Part shown: piece by piece, positions 1 through 20,687 of the stretch | How the letters are laid out: the number at the start of each line of letters is the position of its first letter | Position numbering within the stretch: position 1 is the stretch's first letter | Assembly: GCA_037042915.1 (NCBI GenBank) | Contig: CM073203.1 | Location: forward strand, 1,054,001-1,118,000 | Direction of reading: 5' to 3' | Length of the DNA stretch: 64,000 nucleotides | Source of the DNA: Auricularia sp. M13 | Lineage: Eukaryota; Basidiomycota; Agaricomycetes; Auriculariales; Auriculariaceae | Position numbers and translations under genes: made by a program | Notes under the pieces: generated by a model | The model's input: only the letters and a program-made list of their open reading frames with translations | Databases searched by the model: none | What the model was told of the DNA's origin: nothing

Positions 1-742
1 CTCAGAGAGAGTGAAGAAGGTGAGGGAGAGTCCGAGTTCTTGCTGAGAATCTCAAACTCAAGCTGAGAGATGAGCTACTCAATTGCTAGAGACTCTGGAC
101 ATGAGATAGGGCTTATATACAGGTGAGACGAGGCTATGCATGAGTCCTAGGAGTTCTGGGTCGCTACAGAGTGAGCTGGCAAGAGATGAGAACATGAGCT
201 GGAAAGAGCATATACCCGGAGATAGCAAGATGTCGCGTGCGGCGCAGCGTCTCCCGCGTGGAGATAGCTGACTGAATCGGCTGACTGAGCGCGCGCGCGA
301 TACTGAGCGGAACAGTGGCAGTAGCAAGATGATAAGGCCGAGTAGGAGAGTTGGTCCCCCATACTCCACTGTCAGGGCAGCTCGAGATCTGAAAGATCCA
401 GAGTGCTGCGAGTCGAACAGTGTGCTGTACAGCGTAGTGAGAGAGCGGAGGTGGATAGTCAGCGACGAGGAATTGAGCAAGGAACGGGGGAACTGCCGTG
501 ATAGGAGGCGGCTGTGGAGATGGCCTAGAACCTTCTTCACACACGTTCTCACAGCCGGAGATAGAGCAAGCGTCGTCTGGGAACGCATCCCAGACGTGGC
601 AGAGTTTGTGGCGTGTCTGCGGCGGCGAGGATGCAAGTGCGAGCGCAGGATCAACGGATCGGCAGTGGCTGTGCCGAGTCCGAGGATATGCGTGAGTCGC
701 GTTCAACGGTGTGCGCGATGCCGCCATAGATGCGGCTCGTCA
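1..742 (-). repeat. 3' LTR of element A, partial
   Basis: Matches 19043-19784 base for base except 653 (a versus g19695). The right boundary is the complement of the LTR start TGACGAGCCGC, ending at 742. About 158 bp of the LTR lie beyond the window. A TATATAA promoter box lies on the minus strand near 112-122. Reading frames inside it are LTR sequence, not genes. Confidence 0.95.
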
Positions 743-761: not shown

Positions 762-794
762 GATGGCCGTCCTCGGCCATCGCGCTCTATAAAA
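762..794 (+). promoter_or_regulatory. Hairpin and TATA box of the antisense gene in A
   Basis: A perfect 8-bp inverted repeat GATGGCCG/CGGCCATC with a 4-nt loop (762-781) is followed by TATAAAA at 788-794, about 90 bp before the ATG at 883. The same arrangement, on the opposite strand, occurs in B (11251-11283), so it is a conserved internal promoter of the antisense gene. It lies just outside the 3' LTR. Confidence 0.7.
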
Positions 795-882
795 TCCGCC
801 GTTGGGAACTCGAGGTAAGGCATTCACTTCGCCCCCAGCTCTGCTTTTCCCTGCTTGTCACTGCATTCTCATCTTCTGCACC

Positions 883-1981
883 ATGTCGACCTTAGAGACC
901 ACTGCCGCCGACGCTGACAGCGCAACCGTGGACCCGTGGCGCAATGGGCGTCGTTCTCTGTCCGCTGCCGCGGAGTGCGGATCATGCACGCCGCACACAT
1001 TTGCTGGTTGCACCGTTTTTGCAGGGCGCACCCCCGGACCCTCCATCTCCGCCATGCATTTCGCGGAGCCTGACGGGGTCATGTACGACGGTGAGGCCAA
1101 CGTCAAGTCGCCGTATTCGCCCGATTATGGTAAGTGCCAGCAGCTGTATCATTGTGCTCTCAGCGCCTTGAACCCTGGTCGCAGATCGTATGAACGACGT
1201 GAAGCCCGCATGGCCGGTTGTACATGGCAAGGGTGATCCTGACGTCGTCGAAATTCCCCGCCCACCGAGCTGCTTCTTTTGTCCGGCCGAGATGCGAGGC
1301 CATGCGCGGTGTCCATATCAGTGAGCGCATCCAGTCGATGTCTTGATACCGAGGTTGACGTGGTCTAGGCGAAATGTACGGTGGCTCGAAGACCACGAGG
1401 AAGGCCTACAGTGCGACGATCTCACCCTTATTGTGGCGTACGTGCGCGACCTCATTGAGCGCAAGGGCTTTCGTACGGCGGACCCGCTGCTGCTGCTGTC
1501 GCTCGCTGATCCCGCCGCGTTTTGGGCGGAACTTGCGTATATCGCCGACCAGCTCGTCCGTTCTGAACCAGAGGGCATCGTCGAAGGGCAGCTACTGTTC
1601 AACTACTACCAGGATATCGGTGTCATGATGGTAAGCCATTCTTTTCAAATAAACCAAGGAAGGAAACTGATGTGAAAACGGAAATACGCGCAGCGCAGTC
1701 TTCGTGTCTTGACAGAATGCGCTGTGATTGGACCACGCGCGCGGCAGCTCTTCCGACGCGTTGTCAGCTCGTACGACCGCGTTGAGCGACGGTTCGAGGA
1801 GAAAGAGTATTATGACCACGCAGTCGCCTGTGTGGCCAAATTCTACGAAGTGTCCGAGGAGATTATAGGTGGAGTCGAAGTCAGGGTGCTATATGAGCCT
1901 CTTGTGAACGCCAAGGCGGCGATCGAGACGGCGCTCGATGGACTTCGAGCAGCTGTGGATCGTCGCACAGTATACCGCTAG
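883..1981 (+). CDS. Antisense accessory gene of element A (four exons, 310 aa, unknown function)
   Basis: Exons 883-1129, 1185-1320, 1369-1630 and 1694-1981 join in frame (933 nt) with GT-AG introns of 48-63 nt. I do not recognise the protein. Two Cys/His clusters look metal-binding: C32-x2-C35-x2-H38-x4-C43 and C112-x2-C115-x6-H122-x2-C125. The rest is predicted mostly helical, with a conserved block from ECAVIGPRARQLFRR to the end. The gene runs opposite to gag-pol and stops 10 bp from the pol stop codon. A homologue with identical intron positions and phases is in B (10069-11163). The start is chosen because the upstream TATA box and the homology both begin here. A captured host gene or a retroelement-specific regulator are both possible. 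Confidence 0.85.
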
Positions 1982-1991
1982 AGGAGCACCA

Positions 1992-4069
1992 CTAGTATCG
2001 TGCCTCGCCCGTCGGCTCTGCATCGTCGTCGTCATCTTGTAATTTATTTTCGAGTTTATCTATTAGCTCAAGCTGAGCTTTCGATGTTTCGAGGATGTCG
2101 TCGATGTTGTAAACTTGACGGGAGCGAGGAAAGAAGGGAATTACGCGAAAGGCGGCGCAGCGGCGGATCGAGACGGAGCCGTCCAATTCTGCGAGAACAT
2201 ACGAACCGCGGGCGCTGCGCTGAACCACGAGCATTGGACCGTAATACCGGTCATCCACTTTCTTGAGTCCCAGATCTTTCTCAATACGCGTATTGCGCAC
2301 GAGGACCAGTTCCCCAGGTTGGAAGTTGAAATCGCGGACAGAATGCCCGTGGCGGCGCATGAAGTCCGTGACCGCGGCATTGCGAGCAGAACGGACTGCT
2401 TCCCGCACCTTTTCCAAGTCCTCCTCACGGCGCTGCAGCTGCCGAGCGCGTAGTACAATCAAGTCCTCAGTGGTGAGACGTGGTTGTTGAGGTGGAACCA
2501 GGTACGTAGCGTGCGCAAAATCGAGCGGCATCACGGGTTCAACACCATGCGCCATGAAATATGGTGACATGCCAGTGGTCCTGCGGATTGTGACGCGCTC
2601 CGCCCAAAGTACGAAATCCAACGCGTCCGTCCAGCGCGAGATATCGCCGTCGCAAGTTTTGACCAGCGCTTCGCGCACATCATAATGTTTCCGCTCGATC
2701 GCACCGTTTGCTTGCGAGTTGTAACCTGAGATTCGAATGTGCCGTATTCCATACTTCTCCGCGAGGTACTCGATACCCAGAATCATCGGGGGGCCATTGT
2801 CCGAGATAATCTCGCCGCAATATCCCCAGCGACAGAGGACAAGACGGAAAATCGCTTCGCCGATGGCTTTGCCAGTTTCTCGAGCGAGTGCGGCGGCCTC
2901 CGGGAATGAAATGAGAGCGCACCGCATGTGAAGCAAGTACTTCTTCCCTTTCGAAGCGGGGAGGTGCATGGTGTCGATGTGAGTGCGCTGAAACAGTGTG
3001 GCAATGCGCGCCACTGTCGGCGGAATGTGCAGCTTGAATGTTTGACGGCGCTGACAGTCCTCGCATGTCGCGCAGTACCAGCGAACATCCTCAGCGAGTC
3101 CTGGCCACCAGAACCGGTCGCGGATGAGCGCCTCTGTCGGAAATGCGCCTTTGTGTCCTGTGCCATCGTGCGCAGATTCCAAGACTGAGACGCGCGTCTC
3201 AGCGCTGGTGACAACGATCTTGTGCCTTCTGTCATCGCTTCGACGCCAGAGACGGTCGTCGTGGCGAAAGAATCGACCGCATTGTCGGATAAACCAAGGA
3301 ATATGCTTCTTTTCGATGTTCGGCAGCTCGAGAGTCTGCAGGTAGTGGTCAACTTGTAAGACATGTTCATCCTTTCGCAGTAACGCCGGCGAACGCGGTG
3401 GCACAATGATAGTACCATCCTCCAGTTGATTTGCCGGTAACGCGGGCGTGGGCAGCGACTGGGGCTGAGAGACTATTGCTGCCAGTGACGCGGTCTCAAA
3501 CGGTCCATCCGGGGGCGGCATGAGATACCTGCGGTCTCTCGCAGTCGCAGCGCGGTATTCGATCTGATGACCGAGACTGCCGACGGGCGGAAGAGAACGC
3601 GGTGGGCGCGGCAACACGATGGAGAGCCAGAGTCCGAGGGCAGAGTCAAGCCATTCCTCGGCGTCATCCTCCTCCTGAGGGTCGTCTGGAGAGGCTTTAC
3701 GGCGTGAGAGACCGTCTGCAGCAGTGTGTCGGTCCGCGGGTACATGCACCAGCTTGATATTGAATAGCAGGACCCCTGCGATCCAGCGGTTTATGGTCGC
3801 ATTTGGCTGTGTGTCAGGGTTATTCAACATACCCTTGATGTATTTTGCATCGACCTCGACTAGCAAGACCGGTAGACCGAAGATATAAAGCCGCATATTT
3901 CGCAGTGCGCGCCAGAGACCATAGAGCTCGATTTTCGGCTGAGAGTACCGTGATTCAACTTCGTTCCAGGTAATACTGCCGAACCGAGACGGGCAGCGCT
4001 CGCCTTTCTCGCCGAGCTGTATGAGGACAAAACCCACCCCGTAAATAGATGAGTCGACCGCCAGTATAA
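1992..4069 (-). pseudogene. pol: Element A pol, C-terminal part: RNase H and integrase
   Basis: This is the continuation of A's pol, separated from its RT by B. It begins in RNase H (ILAVDSSIYGVGFVL; a Glu in QPKIELYGLWRALRN; VEVDAKYIKG; DGLSRR near the end). Integrase follows: an HHCC finger (HDGTGHK ... CATCEDC), and catalytic Asp/Asp/Glu in HIDTMHLP, ISDNGPPM and NGAIERKHYD. A GPY/F-like stretch (RYYGPMLVVQ) and a C-terminal coiled region complete it. There is no chromodomain. The frame is open throughout, so this part decayed only by separation from the rest. Stop codon at 1992-1994. Confidence 0.92.
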
Positions 4070-4974
4070 TGACGAGCCGCATTCATGGCGGCATCGCGCG
4101 CACCGTCAAACTCGACTCGCGCACATCCTCGGAGACGCACAGCCACCGCCAATCCGTCGATCCCACCGCCGCGCACTTGCATCCTCGACGCCGTGCGCGT
4201 CTGTCGCACTCTGCCACGTCTGGGATACATTCCCAGACGACGCCTTCGCTATCTCCGGCCAGCAGTACGGTCTGATGGAGGTTCTAGGCCGTCACCACAG
4301 CCGCCTCCTATCAGGGTCCGCTGCTCCGTCCCTCGCTCGACTTCTCACTGCTACCTCTCCATCCTCCCGCTCTTACCACGCCGTATTGCACACCATTCGA
4401 CTCGCGCGACGTAGGATCGGCCAGATCTCGGGCCGCCCTGGAGGTAGAGAATGGGGGATGAACTCTCTCACCTGGCCTCGTCACTCTCCTCTCGTCACTG
4501 TTCCGTCTCGAAGCTCGTACCTGGTCAGTCAGCTTGCTATGTCAGCTATCTCCATGCGGGAGACGCTGCGCTGCATGCTGCGGGAGCCCGTTCTGGAGAT
4601 ATGCAGCCTCCAGCTCATGTTCCCATCCTCTGCCAGCTCATTCCTCAGTTACCCTAGTCATTTGAACTCTTGCATAGCCTCGTCTCTTTCGTGTATATAA
4701 GGTCTCTCAGAGGTTCAGGATGAGGGCAATCAAGCAGCTCAGTTCTCAGTTCGAGTTTGAGGTTCTCAGCAAGAATCTCAAGTTCTCCCTCATTTCCCTC
4801 GCTCTCTCTGAGTCAGATTGGCGGCCAACCAACTCTGCACTCCCTTTCCCATCTCTCTCACTCGATTCTGACATTATCAAGGGGATTAAGTCTCTGTTAC
4901 GGCGCTGCGGACTAGTACTCCTACGGTCCCCGACCTCAGCTAGCTCCTCCTCCTCCTACGGAACCTGCGCGTCA
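4070..4974 (+). repeat. 5' LTR of element B
   Basis: 905 bp, TG...CA ends, near-identical to 11303-12208. TATATAA at 4694-4700 is the likely core promoter, placing the transcript start near 4725-4730. The interior begins TTGTGGTGACCACC, which contains a small palindrome; I could not assign a tRNA primer-binding site. Confidence 0.93.
4694..4700 (+). promoter_or_regulatory. TATA box of B LTR
   Basis: TATATAA in a C/T-rich context about 275 bp before the LTR end, repeated at the same place in the 3' LTR (11928-11934) and, in reverse, in A's LTRs. Confidence 0.6.
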
Positions 4975-5041
4975 TTGTGGTGACCACCGCAGGGACCTAG
5001 TAGGTAGGTCCGCACGCAATCAGCGCTCACAGCGAGCATAG

Positions 5042-7838
5042 ACTCTGGCGCCCAAGTGGGATCCGAAAGCACCGCCGGCGAAAGGAACGCGTACTTTATA
5101 TTCTCGTGATACTTCAAATACAATCAAGCGTCCGCGATTGTCGCAGGCCGCATCAACATCTAACGAAGGAGCGTCAACCTCTGCGGCCGTTCCAGCGTCA
5201 GCCCCAAAGCCACCGTCGTCGCGAGCACTTCCGTTTCGGCACGCGCCAACTCCAACCGAGCGCGCGCTTGCGAAACGTCGCGCAACCGTCTCACAGCCTC
5301 CCTCCCCGCGAGTCGCGCCTTCTGTACCACGTCCACGCTCCCGCTCGTCTTCTGAAGGATCTCAGCATCCAGCGCCAAACTCGCGCTCGCGTTCGCCGAC
5401 ACCTACCTGGAATTCGATCCGGAACCCCTCGCCGTCTCGTTCGCGCCGATCTAGTGGCCCATCCGCGCCAGCTGACGCCGAACAACTTCCCGAGCAACCA
5501 ATCGAGCCTTTAGCGCGACCTCTGCAAGCAGAACGAGCCCACTCACCGGTTCGGTCTATAGCGGACATCCTCGCTGCCGCTGCTGCCCGCCTCAGAAGAA
5601 CCTCGCCTCCGCCGAGTCCTCCGTCGCCTCCGCCTCCGTCTCAACCACCGCCTCAAGCGCCACCTCAACCACAACCCAGAATGGCCGATCCAATCCCAAT
5701 GCCAACGCCCGCGGAGCGCCGCGCCCCGAAGTTCGAGGGCGACGGTCGCACCCTCATCCAATTCCTGCGCGATTACAAGCGCTGCGCCGACGCGGCCAAG
5801 TTAACCGATCAAGAAGCAATAGAACAGGTCGTGACTTACGTTTCGAAGGCAGTACGCGCGGACATCGAGCAGTTTGATGAGTACGAAGATGCTGCGAAGA
5901 CGACATGGGACAACTTCAAGAAGCGTTTGCTGAAAGACTATCCCAATGCCGTCGCGCCAAAAGAGTACACGAAAGATGAGTATGCGAAATTCGTCGAGGG
6001 ATGCGCGACACGCACCGTCACAACCGAGGATCAGCTCGCCGAATTCACGCGCGAGTTTCGCCGCCACAGCAGCAAGCTCGTCAAGAACGGTCGCATTACG
6101 GCCGAGGACAGCCAGCGCGATTACTATCTCGTCCTGTCGCGCAATCTCGGACAGCGGCTCGAGTTGAAGCTGATGATGAAGGACAAAGACAAACGCACCG
6201 ATCAGTTTACAATTGACGAGATCTTCGGCGAGTCGCAGACGATTATCAAGAACAATCGTCTGGACAAGGCGTCCATTGCGACGTCGCCTGCAACGCAGGC
6301 ACAAGAGTCATCAGTCAAGAAAGAAGACGCAATGCTCGTGCTACTCACCCAAATCAAAGACGAGCTCGCCCGCCGCCAAGCTCCTCCCGTGCAGCAGAAT
6401 CGATCTGGTGCGCAGGGTCAGTCCACTGGGGGTGCTGCGAATCCGGCGGCGACGTACTCGATGGAGGGCTGCTACTATGATGCTGGCGCGCATCCTATGC
6501 GCTACTGCCCCGCGCTGAAGGCAGACCTCGAGTCTGGGCGCTGCGTTCGGAATGACCGGGGCAAGATCGTCTACCCGAATGGGGAGATGATCAGAGGCGG
6601 CCCGGGAGTCAAGCTGAAGGATCGTATCGACGAGTTCCACAAGCAAAATCCCGACTTCTTGAAGAAAGCTGCGAAACCAGCTGCATCGGCGATGCTGGTT
6701 GAGATCGGCGAGTCTTACTTCGACAAGGCGACTGTAAACGTGCCGCAATTTGAGACTGAGGACGCCGAGAACGCATGGTATGCGGTCATGAGCCAGACGC
6801 TGACGGCGATCGATCAGCGCCCGCGCCGGCCTTGACGGGGATGCGTACTCAGTTGTACAGGGCGAACGCAGGCAATACGGCCTCCGTAGCAAAGGTCCAG
6901 TACCTGGGAACCTAGGAAAAGTGAATCCAACCGCTAAAGATCAACCACCGCACCTCGAGAAGGGGATTGTCGACAAGATGCCACCGCGGGCAGCGACTCC
7001 GGCACCAGCACCGGCCGCAAAACCAGCCACTCGCCCGTCAGCCACTATCGAGGAAGTCCAAGACCAGGACGCACCTGCTGCTGCGCTGATTCCGCGAGTT
7101 CCACTCCCGCATGTGCCTGCTGTTGCGACGCGCCCGCAGTTCAGACTGCAGTCCCAACTCGAAAATGACGGACTCACCAAAATCATCCACGACCGAATCC
7201 TTGAGTCCAAGGTTGTGATGACCGTCGAAGAGCTCCTTGCAATTAGCCCCAGCCTGCGCAAATACTGGAAGGAGCAGTCCGCAACAAAGCGGGTGACGGT
7301 GGGATTTACAGGCACCGGAGCGGAGATTGATCCGGCATCCGGTGCGGAGATTTTCCAGTACCGCGCCACTGGCAGTCTCTCTCCTTCGCGGGATCTAATT
7401 GCGGCCGAGCACGCGCTGCCACTGCGCTACTTGGACTGCGACATCGCGCAATACACGGTCGAGGGCGTCGTCGATAGCGGTGCCATGCTCGTCATTATCA
7501 GCCGCCAGCTCTGGGAAGATTTGGGCAAGCCGATTGACGTCTCGCGCCGTATGTCTCTGGAAGCCGCGAATAACACGACCGCGCGCACGCTTGGTCTCTG
7601 CGCAAATCTCGAGGTCAAGGTCGCCGGCCTGACCTTCTACCTGCAGGCGCACGTCGTCGAAGACGCGCCGTTCTCGCTGCTACTCGGTCGGCCGTTCCTT
7701 TCGCTCGCACAGGCCTGTGAGGAGCATCGTGACGATGGCATGTCCATTATTACGCTCCATGACCCCAACTCAAACCGCGCCGCTCGCATCCCAACTAAAA
7801 CACGCTCGCGTCGCGCTGAGCAAGCTCAGGATTTTTGA
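5042..7838 (+). pseudogene. gag: Element B gag-protease, frameshifted
   Basis: The frame opens right after a TAG at 5039-5041 and has no early ATG; the first good ATG (A at -3, G at +4) is 5681, MADPIPMPTP. The stretch upstream of it is Ser/Pro/Arg-rich but conserved with A. A capsid-like helical region follows, then a degenerate zinc knuckle (CYYDAGAHPMRYC, Asp replacing the second Cys). An extra base near 6815-6825 shifts the frame and stops it at 6833-6835. The downstream frame continues (about 6830-7838) with an aspartic protease: VDSGAMLVIIS and LLGRPF. The frame ends TGA 7836-7838 on a frameshift heptamer. In A the same region is a single open frame. Confidence 0.9.
7829..7838 (+). promoter_or_regulatory. 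Candidate -1 ribosomal frameshift site, B gag-protease/pol
   Basis: GGATTTT at 7829-7835 in the register G GAT TTT is followed at once by the TGA stop (7836-7838). The pol frame is -1 to gag and open from here. The site is identical in A (16043-16049, minus). GGAUUUU is, from memory, the shifty heptamer of dianthoviruses. Confidence 0.65.
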
Positions 7839-10058
7839 TTCGGGAAGGACGACTTGCTACGCACGCTGCATACCCCGATACCGTGCCGTTTCGCCTTCCC
7901 GCTCAAAACCTCTCCGTTTCCGCTAGCTCCACATACCCACATGCCTCCCCCAACTTGTTCCAATATACGCTTGCCGTCTGCCTCGGGTTCTCGGCCTGTC
8001 TCTGCTACTTTCTGCTGCCCGTTGAATATCATGCCCCGCTCCTACTCGTCTTCACTCTCTCCTCTCTACTCTATGCCACTCTCCCAGAATCTTACCATCG
8101 GACTCTGTCTCGAATCTCTTGCGCTTGTCTACTAAATAGTTTTACAGATCGTTACACCGCTACGCAATCTATGACCGGCATCCCTCTGTACTCGTATCGC
8201 GCTACTTCGGCGGCAACTCTGCACGAAACTACGACCCGCAAACGAATCTCAACTGCCCCGGATATGTCTCGCGGTCCCTCTGCACCGCGCTCTGCTCGCC
8301 ACAGCCATGCCGCGCTGTCGCCTGTTTTCACCGGCCCATCCGCGCCCTCCCTCGATTCCTACGGCCCATCCGCGCCGCCGCTGTTCTCCTCCGGCTCATC
8401 TGCGCCTCCACTGTCTCCCTCTGGCTCATCTGCGCCAAATCACCTTATTCACGACTACGCGCAATCACGGACTGGTTCTGCTGCACCTGTGTCCGCTCTG
8501 TTCTATGCTGTTTACTTCGGGCCACCGCAGGCTCGCCCACCGGACTGGCCGCACGTTCCGGATCGTGAGAATGAAGTCGTCTCACCCATCGAGGGTGACG
8601 ACTACTTGTTCTTCATACAGCCCGACGATGGTGTGACGGACGCGCACGCCGCGAGCGCGTACACAGAGATTGCGATCGAGTATGCTGAGAACGGCGCTCG
8701 ACGCGTCCCTCACGGTCCAAAGCCTGATAACGGCCGCCCGAAGAAAAAGTACAAGCCCGTTGCGAAGAAAGTGCGCCCGCTACAAGAACAACTGCCGCAG
8801 GAGTTTCGCATTGAGCGAAATCGCCCCGCGGACTGCATGGACTCTTTACCCGACCTGCCAGTGCTACCTCCGACGTGGGAGCCGACTACTGCGCATCTCA
8901 CGCGCGAACGCATGGACGGATTCAACCTCGGGCGCGATGACTTTCTTTTGCCCGAGGAAATCAAGCTGTTTCAATTCCTCATTGACCATCACCAGGCAGT
9001 ATTCGCCTGGACTGAGACGGAGCGCCGTCGGTTCAAGGAGTCTTATTTCCCTCCAATTCGATATCCAGTCGTGCCACACGAACCGTGGGCGGACAGGAAT
9101 ATTCCGGTTCTCACGCGGTGTGCGCACGCGCTTGATCGAGTTGCTAAAAGAGAAGATCTCAGCTGGTGTCTATGAACCATCCAACTCGGCTTACCGCTCG
9201 GGGTGGTTCTGCGTCGTCAAGAAAGACGGGACGTCGCTGCGCATTGTTCACGACTTACAACGTTTCAACAGCGTTACTATACGCGACGCTGGAACTCTCC
9301 CATCCCCGGACGACTTCTCAGAACGTTGCGCTGGTCGCGCTTGCATTGGAGCTCTCGACCAGTTCAGCTCTTACGACTTGCAGCTTGTACACCCGGACTC
9401 GCGCGACATTACGACCTTCCAGTCTGACGTGGGACCACTGCGCATTGTCTCACTGCCCCAAGGATGGACCAACTCAGTCGCGATACAGCATGGAAACTTG
9501 GTCTTCATTCTAGCACCAGTAATGCCGTTGGACTTCGCGCACGCTACCTATCTCGTTTCGCCGCAACAACCGCGTCTCACCACCGAGGATCTGATTGTCC
9601 TTCGAGCTCGTCAACTGCAGCGTCGTGAGGACGATCTAGAGAGGGTCCGCGATGCAGTCCGCGATGCGCGCTACGCTGCGATTGCGGATTTCATGCGCCG
9701 CCACGGTCACTCTGTTCGAGATTTCAACTTCCAGCCCGGAGAATTAGTTCTCGTACGCAACACGCGCATTGAGAAAGACCTCGGCCTCAAGAAAGTCGAT
9801 GACCGCTATTACGGGCCAATGGTTGTGGTTCAGCGTGGCGCGCGCGGCTCGTATGTGCTTGCGGAGCTCGACGGCTCAGTCTCCATCCCGCTGCGCGCGT
9901 TTCGCGTCATTCCTTTCTTCCCTCGCTCTCGTCAAACTTACGACATCACGGACATTCTCGAAACGGCGAAGGCTCAACTTGAGCTAATAGATAAACTCGA
10001 AAATAAGTTACAAGATGATGGCGAGGACGATGGGTCGATGGACGAAGCACAGAACTAG
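7835..10058 (+). pseudogene. pol: Element B pol, deleted and frameshifted
   Basis: The N-terminal part (7835-9120) has two hydrophobic segments (residues about 41-60 and 68-84), three PSAP motifs (8276-8377), then the start of RT. A +1 change near 9115 moves the frame. RT continues (SGWFCVVKKDG; LPQGWTNS) to ILAP at about 9520, where the frame jumps directly to the integrase C-terminal tail (VMPLDFAHATYL). Compared with A this is a 2064-bp (688-codon) in-frame deletion with ATGCC microhomology at 9522-9526. It removes the RT catalytic Asp pair, RNase H and the integrase catalytic core. Stop 10056-10058, 10 bp from the antisense gene's stop. Confidence 0.9.
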
Positions 10059-10068
10059 CAACTCTGCG

Positions 10069-11163
10069 CTACCGATACACCGTGCGACGATCCACGGCTG
10101 CTCTCAGGCCATCAATTGCTGCTTGGATCGCCGCGCCAGCGTTCGCGAGGGCGTCGTACAAGGGTTTGACTTCGACTGCACCGATCATCTCTTCAGATAG
10201 GTCATAATACTTCGCCACACACGCTACGGCGTGATCATAATACTCTTTGGCCTCAAACCGTCTCTCGATTCGGTTGTATGAGCTGGAGACGCGTCGGAAG
10301 AGCTGCCGTGCGCGCGGTCCGATGACCGCACACTCTGTTAGCACACGAAGACAGCGCTGCCGCAAAATTTCAGTTTTCTCTCTCCAATTATGAACTAATG
10401 TGTACTTACCATCATGGTTCCGATGTCCTGGTAGAAGTTGTACAGGAGCTGGCCCTCGATGACGCCGTCAGGCTCGGAGCGGAGGAATGCCTCGGCAATG
10501 AACACCAGCTCGGCCCAGAACGCGGGAGCCTCTGCAATCGACAGCAGTAGCAGTGTATCGGCGTTTCGGAAGCCCTTGCGCTCGACGAGGTCGCGCAGGT
10601 ATGCCACGATCAGGATCAAGTCGTCGCATTGCTGGCCCTCCTCGTGGTCTTCCAGCCATCGCACGTTTCGCCTACGATGTGTCAGAATCGGAGCAGCGGA
10701 TGCGGCAATAGACACACGGATACGGGCACCTCGCATGACCTCTCATTTCGGCTGGACAGAAGAAACAACTGAGCGGTCGGGGGATCTCCACGACTTCGCT
10801 GTCGCCGATCGTGTCAGCCGTCGACCAGGCTGTCTTGTCGTCGTCCATGCGATCTGAGCTGAGTATCAAACGGTTGCACAGGGACTCAAATGGAGAAATG
10901 CACAAACCTGTCACACTGGAACTGGGCGAATATGGCGACTGCGCAATGGAGTTGATGCCGTACATGACTCCGTCGGGCTCCGCAAAGTGCTTGGCCGAGA
11001 TGGACGGGCCGGGGGTGCGTCCAGCGAAAACGGCGCAGCCAGCGAATGGATGCGGTGTGCACGAACCGCACTCCGCAGCGGCGGACAGAGAGCGGCGCCC
11101 ATTGCCCCAAGGGTCCACGGTTGTGCTGTCGGCATCGGTGGCAGTAGTCTCGAAGGTCGACAT
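10069..11163 (-). CDS. Antisense accessory gene of element B (four exons, 313 aa, unknown function)
   Basis: On the minus strand: exons 11163-10908, 10853-10718, 10671-10410 and 10356-10069 (942 nt, fully open). Exons 2-4 have exactly the same lengths as in A (136, 262, 288 nt); exon 1 is three codons longer. Both Cys/His clusters (CGSCTPHPFAGC and CFFCPAEMRGHARC) are unchanged although many other residues differ. Differences concentrate at exposed-looking positions such as E/A, D/N and V/I, as expected under protein-level selection. Its retention in a copy that has lost RT, RNase H and integrase suggests the gene is useful to a trans-mobilised element, or is simply recent. No recognised homologue. 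Confidence 0.85.
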
Positions 11164-11250
11164 GGTACAGAAGTCGAGAATGGAATAGGAAGCGGGCAAA
11201 ACTGGGCTGTGGGCGAAGTGAATGGCTTACCTCGAGTTCCCGACGACGGA

Positions 11251-11283
11251 ATTTATAGAGCGCGATGGCCGAGGACGGCCATC
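11251..11283 (-). promoter_or_regulatory. TATA box and hairpin of the antisense gene in B
   Basis: On the minus strand, TATAAAT (11257-11251) lies about 90 bp before the ATG at 11163. The hairpin GATGGCCG/CGGCCATC (11264-11283) sits just upstream. It is the same layout as 762-794 in A. The interval between this and the 3' LTR contains no polypurine tract. Confidence 0.7.
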
Positions 11284-11302
11284 ATTTCAACTACCCCGGA
11301 TA

Positions 11303-12208
11303 TGACGAGCCGCATTCATGGCGGCATCGCGCGCACCGTCAAACTCGACTCGCGCACATCCTCGGAGACGCACAGCCACCGCCAATCCGTCGATCCCACC
11401 GCCGCGCACTTGCATCCTCGACGCCGTGCGCGTCTGTCGCACTCTGCCACGTCTGGGATACATTCCCAGACGACGCCTTCGCTATCTCCGGCCAGCAGTA
11501 CGGTCTGATGGAGGTTCTAGGCCGTCACCACAGCCGCCTCCTATCAGGGTCCGCTGCTCCGTCCCTCGCTCGACTTCTCACTGCTACCTCTCCATCCTCC
11601 CGCTCTTACCACGCCGTATTGCACACCATTCGACTCGCGCGACGTAGGATCGGCCAGATCTCGGGCCGCCCTGGAGGTAGAGAATGGGGGATGAACTCTC
11701 TCACCTGGCCTCGTCACTCTCCTCTCGTCACTGTTCCGTCTCGAAGCTCGTACCTGGTCAGTCAGCTTGCTATGTCAGCTATCTCCATGCGGGAGACGCT
11801 GCGCTGCATGCTGCGGGAGCCCCGTTCTGGAGATATGCAGCCTCCAGCTCATGTTCCCATCCTCTGCCAGCTCATTCCTCAGTTACCCTAGTCATTTGAA
11901 CTCTTGCATAGCCTCGTCTCTTTCGTGTATATAAGGTCTCTCAGAGGTTCAGGATGAGGGCAATCAAGCAGCTCAGTTCTCAGTTCGAGTTTGAGGTTCT
12001 CAGCAAGAATCTCAAGTTCTCCCTCATTTCCCTCGCTCTCTCTGAGTCAGATTGGCGGCCAACCAACTCTGCACTCCCTTTCCCATCTCTCTCACTCGAT
12101 TCTGACATTATCAAGGGGATTAAGTCTCTGTTACGGCGCTGCGGACTAGTACTCCTACGGTCCCCGACCTCAGCTAGCTCCTCCTCCTCCTACGGAACCT
12201 GCGCGTCA
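11303..12208 (+). repeat. 3' LTR of element B
   Basis: 906 bp, same sequence as 4070-4974 apart from one extra C. Followed by the TSD copy ATAA at 12209-12212 and then A's RT coding sequence on the minus strand. Confidence 0.93.
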
Positions 12209-12898
12209 ATAACGTCGCGGCCGCAGACGTAGTCGATCGGTTTTAGACAGGGAACCGTTGCGACCGCTTCTTTGAGCTTGATCATCGCCTCATGGCACGC
12301 ATCGTCGAAGTTGAATGGGACGTCCTTCTTGACGAGGTTGGTAAGCGGGCGTGCGATCAGCGAGAAGTTTCGTATCCACATGCGGACCAAGCCCGCGGTC
12401 CCCATGAATGCACGGACATCGCTGACGGATTCACACGCGGGCCAATCGACCACGCGCTGTATGCGATCCTGCATCGGGCGTCGGCCAGCAAATGAGACTT
12501 CGTAGCCCACGACCGTCACAGACGGCGCGCATATTACTGCCTTCTTCCCGGAAATGGACGCGCCGGAATGATTCAGTCGTTGCAGTACGCGGTTGAGAAC
12601 CTGGGCGTATTCCCAGATGAAGCGGCGTATCCCAGCGTTGCCCGGGATAGTCTCGTAGCTGCCATCGGCATTGAAATAGAACGAACGGGGCCCGAGCGGG
12701 TGCACGTCATCCACGAACGCGTCAACATGCTCTGGCATTTCAGGAGCCAGAATGAACACGAGGTTTCCATGTTGGATAGCTACTGAGTTCGTCCATCCTT
12801 GAGGGAGCGAGACAATGCGAAGTGGCCCGACATCAGACTGAAACGTTGTAATGTTGCGCGAGTCCGGGTGCACGAGCTGTAAGTCATAAGAACTGAAC
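12209..12898 (-). pseudogene. pol: Element A pol, middle part: reverse transcriptase
   Basis: Minus-strand RT core: FQSDVGPLRIVSLPQGWTNS, then AFVDDVHPLGP containing the catalytic Asp pair, thumb and connection (FAGRRPMQDRIQRVVDWP; KKDVPFNFDDACHEAM). It runs into RNase H across the B junction and, on its N-terminal side, joins the 14532-16043 segment across M1. Open frame throughout. GAACTGAAC at 12890-12898 is one copy of the M1 target duplication. Confidence 0.92.
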
Positions 12899-12906
12899 GG
12901 ACCCCT

Positions 12907-13135
12907 AGAAAACCGTGCGCAGGGTTAGAACTTTCGTGCGCATGAGTTTAACTTTTGTGCGCAGGGTCCAAATGTCCGTGCGCACTTTTCAAAATCCGTG
13001 TGCAGGGTCCTGGTCATCCGTGCGCATGAAATGTGCTTTCGTGCGCAATTTTCACAATCCGTGCGCAGGCTCCTGATATCCGTGCGCAGTTTTCACAATC
13101 CGTGCGCAAAGTACAAAATCCGTGCGCAGTGTGAA
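12907..13135 (+). repeat. Left subterminal TCCGTGCGCA array of M1
   Basis: About 11 copies of TCCGTGCGCA or one-base variants, separated so that successive units start roughly 20-22 bp apart. The core TGCGCA is palindromic. Confidence 0.85.
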
Positions 13136-13814
13136 AAACATCAAAAATCTTTTGAAGATGTATATCATAGATGTATTTATGGCACTGTGTGCATTAATAG
13201 AGGTGCACATCTCTAGTGTCAACTATTTTAGATAAACTACTGTGCTACATGATTTGTTCGAAATTTCACTTCCACGTTAGTACAGGATCAGAAATATTCA
13301 GCGAGCATGTTGGTTTGTGTTCTAAGCTGATTTCCTGAAGAGGCTCTAAGTAGGTACTCATAACTCAAAAGATGTTACCCTCATACAGTTATGTTATGTT
13401 AGGTTAGATTAAGCTTGCGAAGGTCAGAACTTATGTTATTTTGGTTCATGAATTCAGGAGTAATATCCTTTGCAGCCTGAGTAACCATGATTCACTCATC
13501 TACTAATAGATTCTAAGCCCTGATCCCAGTTTGGTCAAAAAATCTCAAATGAATTGTCTGGGTCAAGGAGAGACGAGACACGTGTTTTGGGCTGTGGAGT
13601 GGACCTGGAACAAGCCAAAGTTTGCTGTGTCTGCTCCACCACCTCTGTACCACAGAGGTGCTCACTTTCCTGCATCACACCAACATCCCGTCCCTTCAGA
13701 TCTTCTTGTTGATTAGATGGGTTCCAACCTCATCCTCACCATGCCATCTCACAGAGGGACTTGCACGCCCACACCATATTATACTCAAGTTGCTAAGATG
13801 TATTTTCTGTAGTT

Positions 13815-13875
13815 TGGACTAGTGGTTAACATGTACATGTTCTTAATGGATTCGAAACACCCTCAGTTCAAATCC
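13815..13875 (+). other. tRNA-like sequence with box A and box B
   Basis: TGGACTAGTGG (13815-13825, box A-like) and AGTTCAAATCC (13865-13875, box B-like) have tRNA spacing. The acceptor stem does not pair convincingly, so this looks like a tRNA-derived internal pol III promoter in M1, not a tRNA gene. Confidence 0.45.
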
Positions 13876-14072
13876 AGTCATAGACATCCATTTTGTGGCA
13901 CTCTACCCGTGTTTACTACATTCTGTAGTGTATTAACAAACTGTACTTGAGCAGTCAATTGCAACAAGACTTATGGAAATTGTTGGTGTTTGTTAATGAA
14001 CTTCAATGAGTTCAATCAAGTCGCCTAAATGTGCCAAAGTGAAAAAAATAATGCAGTTGTGCTTTATACAGA

Positions 14073-14320
14073 ATCCGTGCGCAACACACAAAATCCGTGC
14101 GCAGTGTAAGCATGTCCGTGCGCATGTCTACCATGTCCGTGCGCATGATTCTAACATCCGTGCGCAGGGTCCAAAATGTCGTGCGCACAAAATCACAATC
14201 CGTGCGCAGTCCTCCTTCATCCGTGCGCACAGACTTACAATCCGTGCGCATGATTTCAACTTTCGTGCGCAGTGTGAAAAATCCGTGCGCAGTCCGTGCG
14301 CATCCGTGCGCAACGTGCGC
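14073..14320 (+). repeat. Right subterminal TCCGTGCGCA array of M1
   Basis: About 14 copies of the same decamer in the same orientation as the left array, spaced about 20-22 bp. The 21-bp period makes a spurious repeating reading frame (IRAQ/VRAH units) that should not be taken as protein. Confidence 0.85.
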
Positions 14321-14531
14321 AACATGCGCGCGGAACTTGAAACCAGTAATTTGACAATATCTTGGCCAGTTTTTAAGGTTTGATAGGTTTGTGCACACAG
14401 ACATGTGCGGGTAGGTGTAAGCTACTGGAATGACCTTCAACAATCATTCTAGGATGTCTGAACAGTCTTCTAGGGCAGGATTACTGCTGCGCACGGACCT
14501 CGCGCACGTGCGCACGGTTTTCTCGTGACCC

Positions 14532-16043
14532 GAACTGAACTGATCGAGCGCGCCAATGCAGGCGCGACCAGCGCAACGTTCCGAGAAGTCGTCCGGGGAT
14601 GGGAGGGTTCCAGCATCGCGTATAGTAACGCTGTTCAGACGCTGCAAATCGTGTACGATGCGTAGCGAGGTCCCGTCGTAGCGAGGTCCCGTCCTTCTTG
14701 ACGACACAGAACCAGCCCGAACGGTATGCCGAATTCGAAGGCTCATAGACTCCCGCGGCGATTTTCTCTTTTAGCAGCTCGATTAGCCGCGTGCGCACCG
14801 CGTGCGGAACAGGAATATTCCTGTCCGCCCACGGCTCGTGAGGGACGACGGGATAGCGAATCGGCGGAAAGTATGATTCTTTGAAGCGGCGGCGCTCTGT
14901 CTCGGTCCACGCGAAGACCGCTTGATGATGTTCAATGAGAAACTGAAAAAGCTTGATCTCCTCGGCCCAGAGAAACCCATCGCGTCCGAGATTGAAACCG
15001 TCCATTCGTTCTCGCGTGAGATGCGCTGTAGTCGGCTCCCAGGTTGGCGGAAGTGTTGGTAGCTTTGGTAATGTCTCCATGCAGTCCGCTGGACGATTCC
15101 GCTCGATACGGTACTCCTGTGGCAGCTGCTCCTGCAGTGGGCGCACTTTCTTTGCGACCGGCTTGTATTTCTTCTTCGGGCGGCCAGTCTCAGGCTTTGG
15201 GCCGTGAGGAACGCGTCGAGCGCCGTTCTCGGCGTACTCGATCGCAATCTCCGTATACGCGCTCGCGGCGTGCATATCCGTGACACCGTCGTAGTGCTGC
15301 ACGAAGAACAGGTAGTCGTCACCTTCAACGGGTACGACGACTTCATTCTCGCGGTCGGGGACATCCGGCCAGTCGGGAGGTCGAGCTTGCGGCGGACCGT
15401 AGTACACAGCATAGAAGAAAGTTGGTACTGGTGCGGCAGAACCAGTCCGCGACTGCACGTGGTCGCGATTGTGATGTTTCGGCGCGGATGGGCCAGAGAG
15501 AGAAAGCAGGGGCGCGGATGGGCTGGTCGGAAACAGCAGCGGCGCGGATGGGCCAGAGAAATCGAGCGACGGTAGAGCAGGGTTGTGAGGAGCAGAGCGC
15601 AGTGCAGAGGGACCGCGAGACGTATCCGGGGCAGTTGAGACTTGTATTCGGTTTGTGAAGACATTCGGCGCGCGCGCGGAAAGCGCGCGATACTCGTACA
15701 GAGAGAAGTCGGTTTTGGATTGCATAGCGCGACGATCTGTAAAACTATTTAGTAGACAACTGCGCAGACGAGGCGAGAGTTCGAGAAATTCGGGTAGAGT
15801 GACATAGAGAACAGAGAGGAGGAACGAGACGAGCAGGAGCGGGGCATGGTATTTAACTGGCAGCAGCAAGTAGCACAGGCAGGCCGAGAATCCGAGGCAG
15901 ATAGCAAGTGTAAATTTGAACAAGTCAGGGGAGGCATGTGGGTATGTGGAGCGAGCGGAAACGGAGAGGTTTTGGGCGGGAAGGCGAGACGGTGCGGTAT
16001 CGGGGTATGCAGCGTGCGTAGCAAGTCGTCCTTCCCGAATCAA
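14532..16043 (-). pseudogene. pol: Element A pol, N-terminal part
   Basis: Entered by -1 frameshift from gag-protease. Residues 41-60 and 68-84 are two hydrophobic segments separated by a short charged loop (LPVKYH). Three PSAP motifs spaced 10 residues apart lie at residues 165-188 (15480-15551). A conserved linker (EIAIEYAENGARRVPHGPKP) leads into the RT fingers (YRSGWFCVVKKDGTSLR). A 16-bp tandem duplication (14663-14693, unit TAGCGAGGTCCCGTCG) then breaks the frame; RT continues in another frame to the M1 boundary (GALDQFSS). Confidence 0.88.
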
Positions 16044-16049
16044 AAATCC
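16040..16049 (-). promoter_or_regulatory. Candidate -1 frameshift site, A gag-protease/pol
   Basis: On the minus strand GGATTTT (16049-16043) is directly followed by TGA (16042-16040). Identical in B, where neighbouring sequence has diverged. Confidence 0.65.
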
Positions 16050-18199
16050 TGAGCTTGCTCAGCACGGCGCGAGCGTGTTTTGGTTGGAATGCGTGCAGCG
16101 CGGTTCGAGTTCGGGTCATGGAGGGTGATGATCGACATCCCGTCGTCACGGTGCTCCTCGCACGCTTGCGCAAGCGAAAGGAACGGCCGGCCGAGCAGCA
16201 AAGAGAAAGGTGCATCTTCAACGACATGCGCCTGGAGATAGAAGGTCAGGCCGGCGACCTTGACCTCAAGGTTCGCGCAGAGGCCGAGCGTGCGTGCGGT
16301 GGTGTTGTTCGCAGCTTCTAGGGACATGCGGCGTGAGACGTCAATCGGCTTGCCCAAGTCTTCCCAGAGCTGTCGGCTGATAATAACGAGCATAGCACCA
16401 CTGTCTACGACACCCTCGACAGTATATTTGCCGATGTCGCAGTCCAAGTAGCGCAGGGGCAGCGCGTGTTCAGCGGCAATTAGATCCCGCGAGAGTGCCA
16501 CGTCTGTAGTGGCGCGGTAGGTGAAAATCTCCGCGCCGGATGCCGGATCGAGCTCCGCTCCGGTGCCTGCAAATCCCACCGTCACCCGTTTCGTTGCCGC
16601 CTGGTCTTTCCAGTACCTGCGCAGGTTGGGACTGATTGCGAGCAGCTCTTCGACCGTCATAACGACTTTTGACTCGAGGATTCGATCGTGAATAATTTTG
16701 GTGAGTCCGTCATTCTCGAGTTGGGACTGCAGTCTGAACTGCGGACGCGCTGCAACAGCAGGCACTCCCGGTACTGGAGCACGCGGAATCGGCACAGCTA
16801 GAGGTGCGTCTACATCTCGCACTTCCTCAATCGTAGCTGACGGGTGAATGGCTGGTTTTGCGGCGGGCGCGGGTGCCGGAGTCGGTGCCCGCGGCGGCAT
16901 CTTGTCGACGATTCCTTTCTCAAGGTGCGGCGGCTGGTCCTTAGCGATCTGATCCACTTTTCCTAGGTTCCCAGGTACTGGACCTTTGCTACGGAGGCCG
17001 TACTGCTTGCGCTCGCCCGACGTAACTGCGTACGCAACCCCGTCAAGGCCCGCGCGGCGCTGATCGATTGCCGTCAACGTCTGGCTCATGACGGCGTACC
17101 ACGCGTCCTCGGCGTCCTTCGTCTCGAATTGCGGTGCTTGTACCGTTGCAGCATCGAAATACGATTCTCCGATCTCGACCAGCATGGCCGAGGCGGCAGG
17201 CTTCGCGGATTTCTTCAAGAAGTCGGGGTTCTGCTTGTGGAACTCGTCAATGCGATCCTTGAGCTTGACCCCCGGCCCGCCTCTGATCGTCTCGCCGCTA
17301 GGGTAGACAATTTTTCCACGCTCGTTGCGGATGCAACGCCCTGCTTCGAGATCGGCCTTGAGAGCTGGACAGTCGCGCATGCTATGCGCGCCACCATCGT
17401 AGTAGCAACCGTCCATCGAGTACGTTGCTGCTGCTGTATTCGTAGCACCTCCAGACGACTGACCCTGCATGCCAGATCGATTCTGCGGCACAGGAGACAC
17501 CTGACGACGCGCGAGCTCGTCCTTGATTTGGGTGAGCAACAGCAGCATTGCATCTTCCTTTTTAACCGACGTATCCTGAGCCTGCGCCGCAGGCGAGGTT
17601 GCAATCGATGCTTTATCCAGACGATTGTTCTTGATAATAGTCTGGGACTCGTTGAAGATCTCGTCGATGGTGAACTGATCGGTACGCTTGTCTTTGTCCT
17701 TCATCATTAGTTTCAGCTCGAGACGCTGACCGAGATTGCGCGCTAGGACTAGGTAATAGTCGCGCTGACTGTCCTCAGCAGTAATACGGCCATTCTTGAC
17801 CAGCTTGCTGCTGTGGCGACGAAACTCGCGCGTAAATTCCGCGAGTTGATCTTCAGTTGTCACGGTGCGTGCTGCGCATCCTTCGACGAACTTCGCATAC
17901 TCATCCTTCGTATATTCCTTGGGTGCTACCGCGTTCGGATAGTCCTTGAGGAGTCGAGTTTTGAATTCGTCCCACGAGGTCTTCGCGGCATCTTCGTATT
18001 CGTCGAACTGCTCAATATCCGCGCGCACCGAGGTGGAGACGTAAGTGACAATTTGTTCTATGGCTTCTTGATCCGTTAACTGGGCAGCATCAGCGCAGCG
18101 CTTGTAATCGCGCAGAAACTGAATGAGTGTGCGGCCGTCACCCTCGAACTTTGGAGCGTGGCGCTCCGCAGGTGTTGGCATTGGGATCGGGTCGGCCAT
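16040..18199 (-). CDS. gag: Element A gag-protease polyprotein
   Basis: 719-aa intact frame from ATG 18199 (MADPIPMPTPAERHAPKFEG). A helical capsid-like region comes first (LIQFLRDYKRCAD ... YYLVLARNLGQRLELKLMM). The degenerate knuckle CYYDGGAHSMRDC follows, then a Pro/Ala linker and an aspartic protease (VDSGAMLVIIS, LLGRPF). It ends at TGA 16042-16040 on the heptamer GGATTTT. The frame is also open and conserved with B upstream of the ATG, back to a TAG at 18820-18818, but without an ATG; either initiation is at 18199 or a longer N-terminus is made by splicing or a non-AUG start. Confidence 0.9.
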   Translation of the reverse strand: MADPIPMPTPAERHAPKFEGDGRTLIQFLRDYKRCADAAQLTDQEAIEQIVTYVSTSVRADIEQFDEYEDAAKTSWDEFKTRLLKDYPNAVAPKEYTKDEYAKFVEGCAARTVTTEDQLAEFTREFRRHSSKLVKNGRITAEDSQRDYYLVLARNLGQRLELKLMMKDKDKRTDQFTIDEIFNESQTIIKNNRLDKASIATSPAAQAQDTSVKKEDAMLLLLTQIKDELARRQVSPVPQNRSGMQGQSSGGATNTAAATYSMDGCYYDGGAHSMRDCPALKADLEAGRCIRNERGKIVYPSGETIRGGPGVKLKDRIDEFHKQNPDFLKKSAKPAASAMLVEIGESYFDAATVQAPQFETKDAEDAWYAVMSQTLTAIDQRRAGLDGVAYAVTSGERKQYGLRSKGPVPGNLGKVDQIAKDQPPHLEKGIVDKMPPRAPTPAPAPAAKPAIHPSATIEEVRDVDAPLAVPIPRAPVPGVPAVAARPQFRLQSQLENDGLTKIIHDRILESKVVMTVEELLAISPNLRRYWKDQAATKRVTVGFAGTGAELDPASGAEIFTYRATTDVALSRDLIAAEHALPLRYLDCDIGKYTVEGVVDSGAMLVIISRQLWEDLGKPIDVSRRMSLEAANNTTARTLGLCANLEVKVAGLTFYLQAHVVEDAPFSLLLGRPFLSLAQACEEHRDDGMSIITLHDPNSNRAARIPTKTRSRRAEQAQDF

Positions 18200-18884: not shown

Positions 18885-19784
18885 TGACGCGCAGGTTCCG
18901 TAGGAGAGCTAGAAGCTGAGGTCGGGGACCGTAGGAGTACTAGTCCGCAGCGCCGTAATAGAGAGTGATAATCCCCAAATGCGTCGGAGTAGAGTGAGAG
19001 AGGATGAGACGAGAGTTCAGAGTTGGTTGGCCGCCAATCTGACTCAGAGAGAGTGAAGAAGGTGAGGGAGAGTCCGAGTTCTTGCTGAGAATCTCAAACT
19101 CAAGCTGAGAGATGAGCTACTCAATTGCTAGAGACTCTGGACATGAGATAGGGCTTATATACAGGTGAGACGAGGCTATGCATGAGTCCTAGGAGTTCTG
19201 GGTCGCTACAGAGTGAGCTGGCAAGAGATGAGAACATGAGCTGGAAAGAGCATATACCCGGAGATAGCAAGATGTCGCGTGCGGCGCAGCGTCTCCCGCG
19301 TGGAGATAGCTGACTGAATCGGCTGACTGAGCGCGCGCGCGATACTGAGCGGAACAGTGGCAGTAGCAAGATGATAAGGCCGAGTAGGAGAGTTGGTCCC
19401 CCATACTCCACTGTCAGGGCAGCTCGAGATCTGAAAGATCCAGAGTGCTGCGAGTCGAACAGTGTGCTGTACAGCGTAGTGAGAGAGCGGAGGTGGATAG
19501 TCAGCGACGAGGAATTGAGCAAGGAACGGGGGAACTGCCGTGATAGGAGGCGGCTGTGGAGATGGCCTAGAACCTTCTTCACACACGTTCTCACAGCCGG
19601 AGATAGAGCAAGCGTCGTCTGGGAACGCATCCCAGACGTGGCAGAGTTTGTGGCGTGTCTGCGGCGGCGAGGATGCAAGTGCGAGCGCAGGATCGACGGA
19701 TCGGCAGTGGCTGTGCCGAGTCCGAGGATATGCGTGAGTCGCGTTCAACGGTGTGCGCGATGCCGCCATAGATGCGGCTCGTCA
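18885..19784 (-). repeat. 5' LTR of element A
   Basis: 900 bp; on the minus strand it starts TGACGAGCCGC at 19784 and ends GCGTCA at 18885. The interior then begins TTGTGGTGACCACCGC, as in B. Confidence 0.95.
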
Positions 19785-20352
19785 GCGCGACAAGACGCTT
19801 GGACACACCGCTCCAACTGCTCCCAGACCAGTGCTAGAGAGCGAGACCGTGCAGGCCCTGCAGGGCTCCGAGGATCTGTTGCCAACGCGCTCGCACGGAG
19901 ACCTCACAGACGACGCGGTCGCTGATGTCGAGCAGATGGTCAAGCACCTGCTCAATGAGCTCACGATGGAGCGCTTCGATGCGATCTCGGACCTCATCAT
20001 TGAGCGGGCGAACGAATCCGAGGACGAAAGGAATGCCAGAACTCTCGTCCGTCGCCGTCGTCCGACTTATTTTCAAGACTGCAACGGACGACGAGTCGCG
20101 GTCGCCTCTGTATGTGTGCCTGTGTCGGAAGATGATGGTGCAGATATCGGACGGCGTCATGGACGAGGGCATCCGCAACACCGAGGGCATCCCCATCAAG
20201 GGCGGCCTGCTGTTCCGCAAGTACCTGCTCAACCGGTGTCAGGAGGACTTCGAGCGCGGGTGGAGCGTGCAGGCGCAGACTGCCGCGGCCGCGAAGGCCA
20301 AGGCCAAGGACGATGCGGCGAAGAAGAAGAGCAACGACACGGCGCAGGCAGG
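19785..20352 (+). pseudogene. eIF4G (translation initiation factor) fragment, N-side of MIF4G domain
   Basis: Encodes the start of the MIF4G domain: a VEQMVKHLLNELTMERFDAISDLIIERANESEDER stretch and, in another frame, VRLIFKTATDDE, LCRKMMVQISDG and LFRKYLLNRCQEDFERGW. These are eIF4G hallmarks; eIF4G scaffolds eIF4E, eIF4A and eIF3 in the cytoplasm. Everything N-terminal is replaced by A's LTR. An indel near 20050-20062 shifts the frame. The coding sequence stops at H's TSD (GCAGGCAGG, 20344-20352). With two insertions and several frameshifts this is a dead copy; a functional eIF4G must exist elsewhere. Confidence 0.88.
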
Positions 20353-20372
20353 TGTAGCTGGATATTGGTGCG

Positions 20373-20580
20373 CACTGGTGCGTCTGGTGCGCAAACCGTA
20401 AAATACATCCTCCTGCTATGAATAGACACTAAAGTGAGTCTATGGGATGGATTTAGGTGTATTATAGTGTATAGAGCTCAGATATGCCAGGGTTAGGCCA
20501 GATAGAAGTCTACTTCACTCAAACAGTAATAGTCGTTGCGCACCAGTGCGCACCAGTACGCACCAGTGCATTCTACATGG
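20373..20580 (+). repeat. Left subterminal GGTGCGCACC repeats of H
   Basis: Units of GTGCGCACCAG and its complement occur near 20373-20395 and 20536-20572, as direct and inverted pairs. Confidence 0.75.
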
Positions 20581-20687
20581 ATATCATGGTGCAAACACCT
20601 TTATAAATTTTCAGGACACTATTACACTCACATCTGAGGCTTAAAAGTTCTTGGAACCATGTTCAACTGGGCCCACAACTTATATTA

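Follow-up and report, generated by a model that had tools for sequence, protein, structure and literature searches.

A predicted multi-intron antisense gene, conserved and under selection in a Ty3/gypsy lineage of Auricularia sp. M13

The window analysed here is a 64,000-nt stretch of the genome of the basidiomycete Auricularia sp. M13 (G000:C11:1054001-1118000; the searched genome comprises 52.1 Mb in 14 contigs). It holds two non-intact long terminal repeat (LTR) retrotransposons, B on the plus strand nested in pol of A on the minus strand, and both carry an additional gene between pol and the 3' LTR on the strand opposite to gag-pol. The 3' LTR of A occupies positions 1..742 of the window on the minus strand (-157 to 742 in full, 900 nt, with 158 nt lying left of the window) and shows 1 mismatch in 900 nt to the 5' LTR (18885..19784, minus strand; target site duplication (TSD) GCGC). 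The LTRs of B (5' LTR at 4069..4974, inside pol of A, and 3' LTR at 11302..12208, both on the plus strand; 906 and 907 nt) differ at one position, i.e. are 99.89% identical, and are bounded by the TSD ATAA at 4065-4068 and 12209-12212. Since each LTR pair is near identical, with one difference, both insertions are young, and despite these recent insertions A and B are old relatives. Paired LTRs and TSDs in both, together with the domain order of A (aspartic protease, RT_RNaseH and Integrase_H2C2 in Pfam), assign them to the Ty3/gypsy class.

An earlier note on this DNA had described a four-exon antisense gene with two Cys/His clusters in both elements, and our reading of the locus bears out this structure. 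In A the exons lie on the plus strand at 883..1129 (247 nt, an open frame with a GT donor that aligns to exon 1 of B), 1185..1320, 1369..1630 and 1694..1981, and in B on the minus strand at 10908..11163 (256 nt), 10718..10853, 10410..10671 and 10069..10356, in the order of exons 1 to 4. Exon 1 thus differs in length, and exons 2 to 4 measure 136, 262 and 288 nt (the last including the stop codon) in both. The six predicted introns of the pair are all GT-AG, with phases 1,2,0 in both genes (predicted introns are 42-67 nt long); the frames are open and encode products of 310 and 313 aa. The first cluster, CX2CX2HX4C in A, is read directly from the sequence at 976..1011 (plus strand) in A and 11035..11070 (minus strand) in B. 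The second, at 1271..1312 (plus strand) in A and 10726..10767 (minus strand, again from the sequence) in B, is a knuckle-like CX2CX6HX2C that in A stands directly before the phase-2 intron closing exon 2. In both elements the antisense stop codon lies 10 nt from the pol stop codon of the other strand. Upstream of the gene there is a TATA-like box, CTATAAAAT at 787..795 (plus strand) in A and CTATAAATT at 11250..11258 (minus strand) in B, as well as a conserved 16-bp block between the 3' LTR and the antisense start (TGGCCGTCCTCGGCCA, 764..779, plus strand in A; 11266..11281, minus strand in B).

The antisense gene is under purifying selection and is not a chance frame. We estimated the ratio of non-synonymous to synonymous divergence (dN/dS) by NG86 for the pairs A-B, A-L019 and B-L019, three pairs in group 2 and one in group 3 of the antisense proteins (the groups are described below); L029, L040, L030, L041 and L044 were excluded. 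A ratio near 1 would have spoken against the conserved gene that the earlier note proposed, and the ratio found for A and B is far below it, 0.099 (dS 1.37, dN 0.135; 142.3 synonymous and 86.8 non-synonymous differences, Fisher p about 4e-48), as is that of the group 3 pair, 0.081, both being rough figures with dS near saturation. The group 2 pairs, with an unsaturated dS of 0.15-0.35, gave 0.140, 0.147 and 0.165, and the near-identical B and L019 gave 0.16, resting on three differences. By the same method, pol of A and L019 has a ratio of 0.051, and part of gag of A and B one of 0.038. In exons 2-4, A and B differ at 37 of 228 first, 25 of 229 second and 118 of 229 third codon positions, so that the third position holds 118 of 180 differences, and when 229 random changes were introduced into the coding sequence of A the frame stayed open in one of 2000 copies. 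With the introns as neutral yardstick, non-synonymous divergence (0.025-0.089) was lower than intron divergence (0.078-0.351) in each of the four pairs compared (Fisher p 0.003 to 3e-11), and between A and B exons align well, introns poorly. Since selection acts on the protein sequence, the protein product matters.

The gene is also conserved within this genome. A search with the integrase returned 82 matches, the survey extending down to about 30% identity, from which we counted 20 loci whose match reaches at least residue 486 of 586 at an identity of at least 47% and lies outside a multi-copy family at 42-52%. The latter comprises 13 loci, ten recognised by copy search and three (C10:2297494, C5:725876 and C7:2323476) by identity alone. 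As the earlier note had supposed of a conserved part of the family, the gene is present in 17 of the 20 loci (A, B, L019, L020, L021, L022, L026, L027, L028, L029, L030, L039, L040, L041, L042, L044 and L045), at the same place and antisense to pol. For 12 of them (A, B, L019, L020, L021, L022, L045, L026, L027, L028, L039 and L042) the gene model is open over its full length and its splice sites are acceptable, the models of L026 and L028 requiring a GC-AG last intron. Antisense and pol stop codons are separated by 8-59 nt in 11 loci and overlap by 4 in L041, values taken from 12 of 15 loci, without L022 (mis-measured), L027 and L030 (no pol tail). The 16-bp block precedes the start codon in the 12 loci displayed, with two changes in L042; searched with up to three mismatches, it is absent from L031 and L046, two of the three loci in which the gene was not found, and the third, L043, has a 3-mismatch site only.

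The antisense proteins, predicted to be 212-370 aa long from genes with three or four short introns, fall into four groups sharing only about 14-29% identity (14-29% over the last two exons, distances 0.71-0.86; 20-29% to A). Common to all four are a Cys/His cluster, a phase-2 intron close after it (two to about eight residues past the cluster), phase-0 introns downstream including the last, and a TGGCCGTCCYYGGCCA block adjoining the 3' LTR. The intron phases are 1,2,0 in group 1, 1,2,0,0 in group 2 and 2,0,0 in groups 3 and 4, i.e. groups 1 and 2 have an extra phase-1 intron and group 1 is missing the middle phase-0 intron. Within a set of 14 proteins, with composition correction off, the best between-group blastp matches of groups 1-4 ranged from E 3e-21 to 0.003, the weakest linking groups 2 and 4. 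Against the profile of groups 1-3, L042 scored 2.9e-5, L041 3.9e-5, L044 0.012 and L025, a homologue in a repeated unit described below, 2.1e-24, the best of 1500 shuffles reaching 3.6. The gene has co-diverged with pol: over 12 loci, with the antisense protein of L019 represented by that of B, distances for pol and antisense protein were correlated with a Mantel r of 0.93 (0 of 5000 permutations). In group 2 the closest integrases are those of L020 and L022 (0.04) and the closest antisense proteins those of L021 and L022 (0.04), and this difference in closest partners suggests that group 2 elements have recombined with one another.

As to what the product is, the earlier note recognised no family, and profile searches likewise found none. 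Pfam gave no family for A and B and only three unrelated weak ones for the nine members of an alignment (A1), the best being SpuA_C at E 0.013 in two of them. Matches in PDB stayed at noise level, with E values no better than 0.055 in one search (ferritins, LIN-28 and others) and 0.078 in another (RuBisCO and others). In a large protein set no relative appeared among 3437 candidates for the A query (E up to 0.01), among the best 8000 candidates by shared words for A1, or among 766 candidates for a last-exon alignment (A3), an absence that is weak given the uncertain content of spliced fungal proteins in that set; the integrase query of viral_contigs returned two stretches fitting a pattern, none of them a relative. 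The retroviral-type CX2CX4HX4C occurs with exact spacing in group 2 only, with variants elsewhere, and gave no Pfam zf-CCHC match. Like the CCHC zinc knuckles of gag and LIN-28, groups 2 and 3 have the spacing CX2C-X3/4-H-X4-C, but group 1 cluster 2 and the L025 cluster read CX2CX6HX2C, and no profile match to such knuckles was significant. The region after the clusters looks helical to the eye. Because of its small CCHC-like cluster, the antisense product is a probable nucleic-acid-binding protein.

Neither of the two elements is intact. A retains a gag-protease frame (16040..18199, minus strand; Pfam gag-asp_proteas 1.6e-8) and the 3' part of pol with RNase H and Integrase_H2C2 in Pfam (1992..4068, minus strand), which is cut by B. 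B has, on the plus strand, a gag frame (5138..6835) with the knuckle CYYD, in which Asp replaces the second Cys, a protease frame (6921..7838; gag-asp_proteas 6.8e-9) and a pol remainder (8670..10058) made of an RT piece and then the C-terminal part of the integrase, with about 2.06 kb lost in between relative to A. A gag-protease frame touches DUF4100 (E 1e-3 and 1.5e-4, below the curated cut-off), which together with the short introns suggests a fungal host, and RT core and rve scores were absent in the broken pieces of A and B scanned with Pfam. Pol of A has a second interruption at about 12904-14530, an insertion rich in near-repeats around GTGCGCA (TCCGTGCGCA), and motif-rich DNA resembling it occurs near 20350-20600. 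Elsewhere in the window, 48235-50065 is an inverted repeat with 904-nt arms, 95% complementary and spaced by 23 nt. Outside the window, four of the 13 loci of the multi-copy gypsy family left out of the count (integrase identity 42-52%) were read, L032-L035, which resemble one another at about 98-99%. After pol they have a long region with other antisense frames (L033 antisense 8947-5995), one with a CX2C...H...C motif (ACYACWRSHGSKRVC). The three frames scanned had no Pfam match, and tblastn with the A and B queries at E 1e-3 found no relative of the antisense gene in these four loci.

Weak matches at C2:2562759, C1:5617065 and C1:5655724 (E 0.065-0.068) proved, when their frames were read, to be homologues of the antisense gene within a repeated unit, L023/L024/L025, whose copies share 6.3-8.3 kb at 99.4-99.7% identity. 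The homologue of L025 is 243 aa as read, with phases 2,0,0 and the cluster CPFCPSSSRGHGGC, and aligns to A1 with an hhalign probability of 98.9; that of L024 has small indels, one of them shortening the last exon. Copies and pieces of the unit cluster at 5.47-5.66 Mb of C1, and C2 (2.56 Mb) has one complete copy plus a short fragment. No gypsy pol was detected in the unit (tblastn, E up to 1) except a 28-residue match at E 0.67, no Pfam domain reached the cut-off in L023, and none of the three copies gave a match to the 16-bp block. The unit may represent a relic, a mobile unit in its own right or a gene standing alone.

We think it fairly probable that this is an element-encoded accessory gene, resident in the Ty3/gypsy lineage since before its families split, with its own promoter, a spliced transcript and a zinc-cluster protein acting in trans. 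Expression toward pol would be driven from a promoter in the interval that separates the 3' LTR from the antisense ATG, where the TATA-like box and the 16-bp block lie. The transcript would lose its three or four short introns by splicing and be translated into a protein of 212-370 aa, in which a helical-looking region comes after one or two small CCHC-like clusters. Splice sites, phases and selection agree with a spliced antisense mRNA, as a prediction at the sequence level. The earlier note had explained the survival of the introns by the polarity of the genomic RNA: this RNA, which is reverse transcribed, reads gag-pol in sense, so that the splice signals of the other strand would go unread and the introns would not be removed before reverse transcription. 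The explanation fits the phases and positions kept at 14-29% protein identity. The protein would most likely bind nucleic acid through its zinc cluster and act in trans for the element, and the gene probably aids the survival or spread of the element. Our first guess at its role is a positive one, either protection from RNA or chromatin silencing or help to the RNA or cDNA of the element, which we favour over self-restriction with modest confidence. Silencing suppression, the example given in the earlier note, is possible, and a suppressor would have a target, since 13 Piwi and 19 RdRP matches at exon level, the majority of them above cut-off, were found in this genome; the antisense RNA could equally feed silencing.

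Several observations weigh against this reading. The large protein set yielded no homologue from outside this genome, neither A, B nor the A1 members matched a zinc-finger or zf-CCHC family in Pfam, and the LIN-28 zinc-knuckle match in PDB (E 0.13-0.76) was not significant. Five of the 17 genes are damaged or partly modelled (L029 and L040 damaged, L030 with a frameshift at a C run, L041 with the last two exons only, L044 partial). In three of the 20 loci the gene was not found, by a splice-aware aligner with the A and B queries in L031 and with four queries in L043 and L046, the frames of L046 and L031 having also been read by eye; the integrase is open in L031, has two stops in L046, and in L043 shows one stop in a match extending to residue 486. 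The 16-bp block occupies the position expected of the polypurine tract, so its conservation may serve plus-strand priming. More speculatively, the whole Ty3/gypsy lineage may have kept a multi-intron antisense zinc-cluster gene that shields it from silencing or is packaged with the element, the stand-alone copy in the repeated unit being an offshoot or a source; we offer this as a tentative extension.

Other explanations deserve to be set against an accessory gene of long residence. The earlier note raised capture of a host gene; here a cellular gene, introns included, would have entered the element antisense at the DNA level and been retained. In its favour are the conserved positions of the predicted spliceosomal introns and the homologue with phases 2,0,0 in a unit without detectable gypsy pol. 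A non-repeated host copy, however, did not emerge: every match belonged either to an element locus or to the repeated unit, the searches giving lower bounds, and the unit, being repeated and near identical among copies, may itself be a relic or another mobile element. Capture is a possibility, though a doubtful one. Slightly less likely is self-restriction or copy-number control, in which antisense RNA or protein would limit the element, as double-stranded RNA with the genomic RNA or as a dominant negative on gag. From the layout, a genomic RNA that runs up to the 3' LTR would contain the complement of the antisense mRNA, Piwi and RdRP matches that pass the cut-off are present in the genome, and the cluster resembles the knuckle of the elements' own gag (group 2 gag, CYYCGGEHRIAQC, and the group 3 antisense protein, CSFCGAVHEEYGC, share CX2CX3HX4C), but an effect of the RNA alone would not preserve the protein sequence, as a dN/dS of about 0.1 indicates has happened.

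The gag knuckles also prompt the idea of a nucleocapsid helper that would supply an intact CCHC knuckle to elements whose own has decayed. Both A and B have CYYD in gag, with the second Cys lost, and keep CCHC in the antisense protein; yet the single group 2 gag read (L037) keeps CCHC in an element that still has the antisense gene, and we regard this idea as improbable. Finally, a sense-strand env-like protein might be encoded, with the antisense frame as its shadow, for GC-rich DNA yields long chance frames and in B the region contains sense frames of 125-173 aa. A, however, has no sense frame of at least 100 aa in 883-1981, and the contrast of well-aligned exons with poorly aligned introns, along with the excess of changes at third antisense codon positions, brings this last reading close to refuted.

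What emerges is a probable antisense accessory gene for which selection has been measured, whose intron positions hold among families that have diverged widely and whose product has a candidate motif for nucleic-acid binding; with these documented, removal of the gene becomes a direct functional test. The gene suggests that spliceosomal introns can persist for long in retroelements if the gene that bears them lies antisense; if true, retroelements can own genuine intron-bearing genes, provided these are on the strand that is not copied. Antisense-intron reporters are used in transposition assays, and an intron-bearing antisense gene would be their natural counterpart.

Antisense genes of this kind have precedents. 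The gene agrees with the class of antisense additional open reading frames (ORFs), which are antisense, downstream of pol and in most copies of a family, as here in 17 of 20 loci. In plants, where LTR elements have long been seen to carry antisense accessory genes to which no function is assigned (PMC7264820), the class includes gene23 of maize Grande, rice RIRE2 and Silene Retand (PMC7264820, PMC11963269), and gene23 is described as being transcribed from an upstream promoter of its own, with a product located in the nucleus (PMC7264820). They resemble the gene described here in orientation, in position between pol and the 3' LTR and in presence in most family copies, and the plant ones also occur in distant species. 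Retand ORFs encode TRP28 (Transposase 28, PF04195), whereas A, B and the A1 members had no PF04195 match, and the main texts of two of the source papers make no mention of introns, against three to four at conserved positions, with CCHC-like clusters, here. HBZ of HTLV-1 and APH of HTLV-2/3/4 are likewise antisense accessory genes, and theirs is a spliced transcript that begins close to the 3' end of the retroid element (PMC10186651), splicing here being predicted only; but HBZ, a bZIP regulator, has its start within the 3' LTR, while here the TATA-like box is outside the LTR, the protein has CCHC-like clusters, and Pfam found no bZIP domain in A, B or the A1 members. An opposite-strand accessory gene has also been described in a Sola1 DNA transposon, which is not an LTR element (PMC12477816). 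Among the open-literature titles and abstract openings listed, none described a fungal gypsy element with a spliced antisense gene. The nearest fungal case is that of the Boty-like elements of Botrytis cinerea, whose antisense gene brtn is given in a review as an example of antisense genes located between pol and 3' LTR (PMC7264820, PMC4227169, PMC8365987, PMC5987419); these are likewise fungal LTR elements with an extra antisense gene, and differ in that gag-pol of Boty has a CHROMO domain (PMC4227169). Antisense accessory genes are therefore already known, and the conserved multi-intron gene predicted in this Ty3/gypsy lineage is a variant of that class.

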